Shown here in pieces: positions 13,991 through 16,616 of a stretch of 34,002 nucleotides of DNA. The notes beneath the pieces are model-generated. The model worked only from the letters and a program-made list of their open reading frames with translations. It searched no databases and was not told where the DNA came from. The position numbers were made by a program, and so were the translations under genes. The stretch is taken from NCBI GenBank assembly GCA_009787485.1, contig WQWP01000004.1, positions 1-34,002 on the forward strand, in the 5' to 3' direction. This DNA is from Lentimicrobiaceae bacterium. GTDB lineage: Bacteria > Bacteroidota > Bacteroidia > Bacteroidales > WCHB1-69. How positions within the stretch are numbered: the first letter of the stretch is position 1; each line of letters starts with the position of its first letter.

Positions 13991-15115
13991 ATGAAATATT
14001 ACATTATTGCCGGTGAAGCCTCAGGCGATTTATTGGGTTCTTATTTAATGAAATCCATAAAAAAGCTGGATGCCTCTGCCAATTTCCGTTGCTGGGGCGG
14101 CGATTTGATGGAAGCACACGGCGGAAAAATTATCAAGCATTACAAAGAGCTTGCTTTCATGGGGTTTTGGGAAGTGATGAAAAATTTGCGTACTATCCTT
14201 AATAATATTAAGATTTGTAAAGCAGATATACTACATTGTAAACCCGATGTGCTTCTCTTAATTGATTACCCCGGATTTAACATGCGTATTGCAGAATTTG
14301 CTAAAAAACAGAATATTAGAGTCGTATATTATGTGTCTCCGCAAATTTGGGCATGGAAGAAAAATCGTGTGCACAAAATTAAACGTGATGTGGATACACT
14401 AATTTCCATTTTGCCTTTTGAAAAAGATTTTTTTGCCCAATACAATTATGAAACCCATTATGTTGGACACCCTTTGTTGGACATCATTACCGATGCAATG
14501 AAAAACGATGATTGGAAAATCTTTAAAGAAAATTATCATTTAGATGACCGTCCGGTTATTGCTGTTTTACCTGGAAGTCGCCGGCAGGAACTTAAAAAAA
14601 TGCTTCCGGTTATGGTGCAAATGGCAGAGTATTTCCCTGAATATCAATTTGTAATGTCGAAAGTAAAATGGCAGCCGCTCTCATTATATCAATCTTATAT
14701 AAAAAACTATCCCATCATTTTAGTAGAAGGAAACACTTATTCGTTGTTGCATCACGCAAAAGCGGCGATGGTAACTTCCGGCACGGCAACTTTAGAAACT
14801 GCATTGTGGAATGTGCCGCAAGTGGTGTGCTATAAAGGTAGTTTTCTTTCATATCTCATAGCCAAAATAGTCGTAGGTAAACATTTGAAATACATTTCGT
14901 TAGTAAATCTTATTTTGAACAAACCTGCCGTAACGGAGTTAATTCAACATGAATGCAATCCAAAAAAATTAAAAAATAAACTTGCAAAAATTGTAAATGA
15001 TGATGTTATTATTAATACAATACAAAACGATTATAAACAATTGCAACATATTTTAGGCGATGCCGGCGCTTCCGATAAAGCGGCAAAATTAATTGTAAAC
15101 CATGACATTAGATAA
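13991..15115 (+). CDS. lpxB: Lipid-A-disaccharide synthase
   Basis: MKYYIIAGEASGDLLGSYLM..., YVSPQIWAWKKNRVHKIKRDVD, VLPGSRRQELKKMLP, SGTATLETAL. Confidence 0.95.
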   Translation: MKYYIIAGEASGDLLGSYLMKSIKKLDASANFRCWGGDLMEAHGGKIIKHYKELAFMGFWEVMKNLRTILNNIKICKADILHCKPDVLLLIDYPGFNMRIAEFAKKQNIRVVYYVSPQIWAWKKNRVHKIKRDVDTLISILPFEKDFFAQYNYETHYVGHPLLDIITDAMKNDDWKIFKENYHLDDRPVIAVLPGSRRQELKKMLPVMVQMAEYFPEYQFVMSKVKWQPLSLYQSYIKNYPIILVEGNTYSLLHHAKAAMVTSGTATLETALWNVPQVVCYKGSFLSYLIAKIVVGKHLKYISLVNLILNKPAVTELIQHECNPKKLKNKLAKIVNDDVIINTIQNDYKQLQHILGDAGASDKAAKLIVNHDIR

Positions 15116-16616
15116 AATCAACACCATTTATTTCCTGGGAATCGGCGGCATAGGCATGAGCGCCCTGGCGCGTTTTTTCTTGCTTCAAGGGAAACAGGTT
15201 TACGGATACGATCTTATGTTCACAGAAATTACCTCGCAGTTAATTACAGAAGGCGCGTACATTCATTTCGAGGAAGATATAACTCAAATACCGGCGCAAA
15301 TAGATATGGTGATTTACACGCCGGCAATTCCGGAAGAACATGAAGAATATCAGTATTTTATTAAACATAAAATCCCTTTATTAAAACGTTCCGAAATTTT
15401 GGGAATCCTTTGCAGTTGTTATCCCACCATTGCCGTTTCCGGAACGCATGGGAAAACGACGACCACGGCGATCGTTACGCAGATCTTAGGAGAAAAGGAA
15501 CAAAGGAGAAAGGAGAAGGGAGAAATATTCCCTTCAAATTTTGAAGGGGTGCCCGAGGGGCGGGGTAGTTTATATAAAAATAAAATCCTCAGTTTCATCG
15601 GCGGCATCTCCAAAAACCTCAACAGCAACTTCCTTTGCGAGCCCGATTTTAACACCATAATAGTAGAAGCCGACGAATTCGACCGTTCATTTTTAACATT
15701 ACGCCCCCAAGTAGCCATCATCACCTCCATAGATGCCGATCATTTAGATGTTTACAAATCTCACGAGCAATTAAAAGAGTCGTTTCAATTATTTGCTAAC
15801 CAGATACAACCGAGTGGCACTTTGGTTATTTATGATGAGATTGCGGATGAGATTGTGCATCCGAATAAAGTTACCTATGGGTTTTCGGAAGGGGCGCGGT
15901 ATCGGGTATGGAATATTCGGTATGGGGTGGCGAATATGGAATTTGATTTAGTATATAAACCACCCCGCCCTTCGGGCACCCCTTCAAATTTTGAAGGAAA
16001 TATTATTGCTCGTCATTCCGAGCGTAGCGAGGAATCTCGTTCCATGTCGCTCACCATAAACCTCCCCGGCAAACACAACGTGCTGAACGCCGTGGCTGCA
16101 CTTGCTGCGTGTATAGAATTTTTATCCTGGAAGGAAATAGTTGTGGATATTTATTCATTAATAACCTCAGTAGCAAGTTTTACCGGCGTAAAACGCCGTT
16201 TTGACATCCGCATTCAACGCGATGATTTGGTGTATATTGATGATTACGCGCATCATCCGGAGGAGATTCGGGCGTTTTTAGAGGCGGTTAAAAAAAGTTA
16301 TCCTGCCAAAAAAATTACCGGTATTTTTCAGCCGCATTTGTATTCACGAACAAGAGATTTTATTCGGGAGTTTGCAGATGCTTTGGAGGTTTTAGATGAA
16401 GTTATTTTGTTGGATATTTATCCGGCAAGGGAAAAACCGATAGAGGGAATTACGTCTGATTATTTATTGTTGTTCATAAAAAATGAAAATAAAAAACTCC
16501 TTAAAAAAGAGGAGCTTGTGCCTTATTTGCAACAAAACAAGCCGGAGGTTTTGGTTACGATGGGCGCCGGGGATATTGACAAAATGGTGGGTGTTTTAGA
16601 AACCACTTTTTGTTAG
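15102..16616 (+). CDS. murC: UDP-N-acetylmuramate--L-alanine ligase, with in-frame repeat-derived insertions
   Basis: YFLGIGGIGMSALARFF, VSGTHGKTTTTAIV, GGISKNLNSNF, VEADEFDRSFL, DADHLDVY, GVKRRFDIRI, DDYAHHPEEI. Contains unusual insertions at ~15488-15582 and ~15956-16041. Confidence 0.95.
   Translation: MTLDKINTIYFLGIGGIGMSALARFFLLQGKQVYGYDLMFTEITSQLITEGAYIHFEEDITQIPAQIDMVIYTPAIPEEHEEYQYFIKHKIPLLKRSEILGILCSCYPTIAVSGTHGKTTTTAIVTQILGEKEQRRKEKGEIFPSNFEGVPEGRGSLYKNKILSFIGGISKNLNSNFLCEPDFNTIIVEADEFDRSFLTLRPQVAIITSIDADHLDVYKSHEQLKESFQLFANQIQPSGTLVIYDEIADEIVHPNKVTYGFSEGARYRVWNIRYGVANMEFDLVYKPPRPSGTPSNFEGNIIARHSERSEESRSMSLTINLPGKHNVLNAVAALAACIEFLSWKEIVVDIYSLITSVASFTGVKRRFDIRIQRDDLVYIDDYAHHPEEIRAFLEAVKKSYPAKKITGIFQPHLYSRTRDFIREFADALEVLDEVILLDIYPAREKPIEGITSDYLLLFIKNENKKLLKKEELVPYLQQNKPEVLVTMGAGDIDKMVGVLETTFC
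15524..15575 (-). repeat. ~52-nt palindromic repeat, copy 1 (minus orientation), inside murC
   Basis: aatattcccttcaaattttgaaggggtgcccgaggggcggggtagtttatat. Its reverse complement matches 15953-16004 with about 4 differences. Confidence 0.9.
15953..16004 (+). repeat. ~52-nt palindromic repeat, copy 2 (plus orientation), inside murC
   Basis: atataaaccaccccgcccttcgggcaccccttcaaattttgaaggaaatatt. Internal hairpins gccc-ttc-gggc and ccttcaaa/tttgaagg. Confidence 0.9.
16011..16039 (+). repeat. 'HSERSEES'-type palindromic repeat inside murC
   Basis: cgtcattccgagcgtagcgaggaatctcg, translated RHSERSEESR in the murC frame; attcc...ggaat hairpin. Confidence 0.75.

Follow-up and report, generated by a model that had tools for sequence, protein, structure and literature searches.

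The murC gene in this 34,002-nucleotide window (the whole stretch of DNA analysed here) of a Lentimicrobiaceae genome carries two in-frame copies of a short palindromic element that is dispersed through the genome. We regard the element as a new family of REP/RPE-like, in-frame palindromic elements in Bacteroidota, a kind that is itself already known; the best-known examples of in-frame palindromic repeats come from Rickettsia and a few Proteobacteria. The family and its copies, their use of reading frames, the covariation of their stems, the insert-free orthologs and a compositional signature in the flanking DNA are observed directly. The element is probably a non-autonomous, short palindromic mobile repeat of the REP/RPE kind, filtered by frame and peptide within genes, with substitution in its flanks accompanying insertion or repair.

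Two in-frame copies in murC

The murC locus contains the following features:

15102..16616, + strand: murC (UDP-N-acetylmuramate--L-alanine ligase), 504 aa, an intact ORF with two element insertions; Pfam Mur_ligase, Mur_ligase_M and Mur_ligase_C all above cut-off; best PDB match 9ir5 MurC
about 15489..15523, + strand: purine-rich filler GGAGAAAAGGAACAAAGGAGAAAGGAGAAGGGAGA, part of the MurC insert and missing from orthologous MurC proteins
15524..15575, + strand: element copy 1, sense, encoding FPSNFEGVPEGRGSLY; hairpin 1 at 15529-15549, hairpin 2 (decayed) at 15551-15561, tail GGGGTAGTTTATAT at 15562-15575
15580..15700, + strand: downstream flank of copy 1 with altered third codon positions, C-ending in 18/25 codons
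15865..15952, - strand: flank of copy 2, downstream in element orientation and upstream in the gene; coding-strand codons end in G
15953..16004, - strand: element copy 2, antisense, encoding YKPPRPSGTPSNFEGN in MurC; hairpin 2 at 15967-15977, hairpin 1 at 15979-15999
16011..16037, + strand: CGTC-tagged REP-like repeat CGTCATTCCGAGCGTAGCGAGGAATCT, in frame in MurC as ARHSERSEESRS

Both copies lie within one murC ORF (15102-16616) with zero internal stops, as a sequence-only reading of this DNA had claimed. Its description of the pair also holds: 15953-16004 differs from the reverse complement of 15524-15575 at 4 of 52 positions, the encoded peptides (EIFPSNFEGVPEGRGSLYKN for copy 1 and VYKPPRPSGTPSNFEGNI for copy 2) are those that it gave, and the unit consists of two abutting palindromes. 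The palindrome CCTTCAAATTTTGAAGG occurs with 0 mismatches at 15531 and at 15981 (4 matches at ≤3 mismatches, versus 0.33 expected from shuffles), while GCCCTTCGGGC is present in copy 2 only and takes the decayed form GCCCGAGGGGC in copy 1. Overlooked by that reading were the CGTC-tagged repeat 3′ of copy 2 and the purine-rich filler 5′ of copy 1; filler of similar style lies on the left side of many element copies. Both inserted segments are missing from the MurC proteins of four orthologs in the genus and of more distant ones, and loop 1 of two MurC orthologs holds unrelated filler. An Rfam search of the murC region returned nothing above threshold and one sub-threshold match.

The interpretation placed on the pair was partly supported. 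The inverted copies had been proposed to pair in mRNA or to promote inversion of the DNA between them. In a thermodynamic model that ignores translation, copies 1 and 2 pair over 49 bp at -83.5 kcal/mol, versus about -31 kcal/mol for the separate hairpins; mRNA pairing is thus thermodynamically possible, and the modelled duplex is far more stable than the local hairpins. We nevertheless regard it as very unlikely that the pair is a regulatory device, whether as a long-range mRNA duplex or as an invertible segment: same-orientation pairs within one ORF also exist (M16-region ORF, ABC ATPase), most copies are single, and an inverted segment would garble an essential ORF. Inversion of 15524-16004 itself has no support, since the segment between the copies is collinear in four genus orthologs. 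It is scarcely credible that errors in metagenome assembly or binning produced the copies. Several of the 200 contigs do start about 60 nt before a copy, but both murC copies are mid-contig, the ORFs are open with domains on both sides of the copies, and another assembly (G004) has the same element in the same loop of an M16 peptidase.

A dispersed family of paired hairpins

The genome (G000), that of a gut-type member of the Bacteroidales, is metagenome-assembled (2.26 Mb, 200 contigs, 86% complete), and the data used were the stretches around copies plus a 395-kb sample. With N at its centre, the palindrome has 58 matches in the genome, versus 0 for a reversed-pattern control, and flanked sequences were obtained for 65 full, near-identical elements, so that the further copies foreseen from the murC pair do exist. 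Elements are 52 to 58 bases long and comprise two hairpins; the core consists of ATCCCCTTCAAATTTTGAAGGGGTG, hairpin 2 and CGGGGTAGTTTATAT and is identical in 20 copies. Hairpin 2 falls mainly into 11-nt and 17-nt classes, two codons apart, and the element ends, AATATCCCC and GGGGTAGTTTATAT, form no long inverted repeats.

The architecture is conserved across genera: the two hairpins abut, compensatory change is strong, and the tail GGGGTRGT is retained. Among 22 aligned variants, 10/16 pairs are altered on both sides and 93.9% of cells are paired, giving a covariation score of 0.239 versus 0.082 for shuffled and ≤0.096 for slid alignments, the slid control favoring the structure because the structure was drawn from the consensus. 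Hairpin 2 alone has both-side changes in 7/7 pairs and 35 sequence variants, mostly perfect stems, and consensus copies have DNA folding z values of -5 to -6. A GTAG lies near hairpin 2, with stem and tag a few G apart, and reads GTGG in related genera.

Within the bacterial family, exact hairpin 1 is confined to the genus, where it occurs in 4/6 genomes (52 strand matches in G000, ≤9 elsewhere). Among named relatives, the same sequences are found in Bacteroidetes MAGs, for example Th196P4bin9 and Nc150P4bin20; judging by their isolate names, these MAGs would come from termite guts. Variants whose stems differ are found in further genera of the family and, as isolated cases, in a Chitinophagales MAG and a Francisella sp. 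record. A contig of Francisella sp. SYW-9, outside Bacteroidota, has two element-like repeats in opposite orientation (L163:5161-5285). Phage and plasmid collections searched at the DNA level and viral contigs searched by pattern gave no match to the element.

Place in genes and reading frame

At least 28 of the 65 copies are internal to ORFs, nine of them within one repeated gene family bearing Por_Secre_tail; ORFs were called crudely, as the longest open frames, which leaves the counts close to gene starts uncertain. Enrichment inside ORFs, which had been put forward as a check, is not apparent from about 28/65 copies in a genome expected to be mostly coding. Intergenic copies lie between 27 tandem, 6 convergent and 1 divergent gene pairs. 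REPs are found mainly between tandem genes (PMC3733652), and with its intragenic share the element departs widely from ordinary REPs, which are intergenic by habit. Members of the Por_Secre_tail-ending family (contigs C11, C55, C100, C111, C117 and C169 of G000) carry one or two elements each, and several contigs start or stop there.

For 16 intragenic copies, Pfam supports a domain around or at the element. Their hosts are murC (two copies), another Mur ligase (probably FolC), a MurF-like ligase, an M16 peptidase, GH2, a GlmM-type phosphomutase, FtsK, HlyD, UvrD, LpxK, DAHP synthase, AroA, a duplicated ABC ATPase (two) and a Lyase_1 enzyme. The covarying two-hairpin family within cell-wall, LPS and replication genes thus amounts to a natural set of tolerated loop insertions.

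The element had been described as stop-free in murC whichever way it is inserted. Both murC orientations are indeed in frame, but this does not extend to every frame of the element: four of six are open, and TAG or TAA closes two. Among the 16 Pfam-supported copies, 13 use the sense frame SPSNFEGVPEGRGSLY and 3 the antisense frame KLPRPSGTPSKFEGD, both hydrophilic, and the two more hydrophobic open frames are used by 0/16. Confinement of 16/16 copies to two of four open frames has P of about 1.5e-5 if copies are taken as independent and frames as equal. Copies in other species of the genus also use the sense frame. This frame bias suggests that peptide chemistry filters the surviving reading frame.

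Each of five genus members has its own, different insert in the M16 loop, and we therefore regard such loops as repeatedly invaded; in G004 the same element occupies the same place. Loops of the M16 peptidase and the FolC-like Mur ligase are hypervariable in the genus, with different low-complexity inserts each (L215-L222). In a separate arrangement (L106:1525-4302), an element (C3:40767) marks the point where a CCA-adding/PolyA polymerase and an M16 peptidase join within a single open frame that is at least 926 aa long.

Composition of the flanking DNA

In element orientation, the flanks are G-rich and C-poor on the left and C-rich and G-poor on the right to about 150 nt, in embedded and non-embedded copies alike (C>G in 50/56 right flanks; G>C in 47/56 left flanks, where values include filler). 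In the first 20 right-side codons of the 16 copies, third-position C is 0.58 and T is 0.11, versus 0.22 and 0.29 far off in the same genes, and at 15/16 copies the vicinity of the element is richer in C than the rest of the gene (Wilcoxon P = 0.0005). The third-position signal fades by about 150 to 250 nt downstream (element orientation), and left-side host DNA past the filler has a weak A-to-G excess.

At codons for the same amino acid, third-position C is 0.63 and T is 0.04 in G000, versus 0.22 and 0.33 in insert-free orthologs, with 157 T-to-C changes versus 12 unchanged T; codon pairs are not independent, because several orthologs were counted per codon, and orthologs stand in for ancestry here without being ancestors. 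The main rival explanation of the flanks is target choice, in which the element prefers DNA already switching from G-rich to C-rich. Gene ends and starts show a mild switch of the same sign in the absence of repeats, and skewed blocks occur elsewhere in the genome. The ordinary third positions of insert-free orthologs are evidence against a target preference, strong but short of absolute given that orthologs are not ancestors, and the local C-richness of nearly all copies relative to the rest of their own genes also speaks against it; we judge target choice unlikely. Selection on codons or mRNA structure after insertion appears less likely still. Sense copies are trailed by unstructured C-rich codons, as such selection could produce, but the sign tracks the element rather than the gene (G-ending codons accompany murC copy 2, which is antisense), and non-embedded copies have the same skew. 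Purine filler alone was rejected as the main cause, as element-free filler arrays raise the skew only slightly.

The pattern suggests instead that the signature reflects local strand-directed mutation tied to insertion or hairpin repair in this lineage. We tentatively propose, as a possibility somewhat short of even, that a hairpin repeat, as it inserts or is repeatedly repaired, provokes local strand-directed hypermutation in the host gene, which in the first ~60 to 150 nt downstream would convert nearly all synonymous T to C while the core stays constant. If this is true, palindromic repeats would be directional mutators of essential genes, beyond passengers; a mutational signature would tie small hairpin repeats to directional local mutation. 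Elements in two other species of the genus (G004 and G005) have no flank signature, and the M16 peptidase of G004 has the same-site element yet lacks it. The signature is therefore no automatic result of the element, and we discarded the idea that it is a property of the element in every genome.

Over the last 20 codons of genes in the sampled stretches (L195-L214), third-position G is 0.28 to 0.29 and C is 0.08 to 0.13, versus 0.19 and 0.21. Gene starts there are mildly C-rich, and both features occur with or without nearby repeats.

Relation to known repeats and possible mode of spread

Among known repeats, REPs and the in-frame palindromes of Rickettsia come closest to the element in kind. 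RPE-1, RPE-4 and RPE-6 of Rickettsia are short palindromes that lie in frame within unrelated genes, which are probably functional (PMC3733652). The element resembles them, as they are described, in being a short palindrome dispersed in unrelated ORFs with frame kept and conserved domains around it (the 16 Pfam-supported copies, with insert-free MurC orthologs) and with a consistent frame among intragenic copies, also in other species. It differs in its phylum, its two-hairpin layout with the GGGGTRGT tail, its purine filler and the composition switch in its flanks. GTAG-tagged REPs are likewise small and hairpin-forming and mostly separate tandem or convergent genes; intragenic and even doubled copies of them have been reported (PMC3733652). 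The element shares with them GTAG at one end, small hairpins and a presence in tandem or convergent gene gaps, but its GTAG is a few nucleotides off hairpin 2. It is not established as a GTAG REP, because no RAYT gene is flanked by copies (the genome has 6 Y1_Tnp genes) and the tag varies to GTGG in relatives. Like MITEs, it is short, non-coding by origin, dispersed and hairpin-forming; unlike MITEs, it lacks long terminal inverted repeats (15 to 30 bp, with target-site duplication, in MITEs).

In the reading that we favor, a single strand of the element would fold into two adjacent hairpins (a 21-nt palindrome and an 11- or 17-nt hairpin) followed by GGGGTAGTTTATAT, and mobility via single-stranded DNA seems plausible because the hairpins are conserved. 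We infer that an enzyme acts in trans and that the flank signature has a mutational origin. The element would have multiplied recently in this genome, landing in intergenic and loop-coding DNA, usually beside purine-rich filler or a CGTC-tagged repeat. Intragenic copies would survive only if insert plus filler keep the frame, in the hydrophilic sense or antisense reading, and host proteins would gain a tolerated loop of about 20 to 40 residues, presuming that the peptide is retained. Insertion or repeated hairpin repair may be accompanied by local strand-directed substitution in the flanks.

None of the 6 Y1_Tnp genes has element copies on both sides, and one lies ~490 bp from a copy. That gene (L145:1500-2000) sits beside GTCCC...GGGAC hairpins; carrying its own GTCCC-type hairpins, it was set aside as the element's partner. 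The 25 most frequent families of 47 neighboring ORFs include no transposase family. No target-site duplication or exact DNA-level empty site is recognizable against the orthologs, because these are only about 70% identical in protein.

CGTC-tagged REPs have been reported in Bacteroidetes and Rickettsiae among others (PMC3733652). The neighbor at 16011-16037 is alike, with CGTC followed by a palindrome, but it is a separate repeat, and the element itself has no CGTC tag. The repeat has 22 copies in the genome, 8 of which adjoin an element in the same relative orientation; in the second murC insert it lies about 8 nt from the element. The genome also has scattered tandem 7-8-mer fillers, among them TTAGTGG, GGAGAAA, GAATTAG and TGATGAGG (L195-L214, e.g., L210:9430-9510, L195:18222-18352 and L207:9219-9267).
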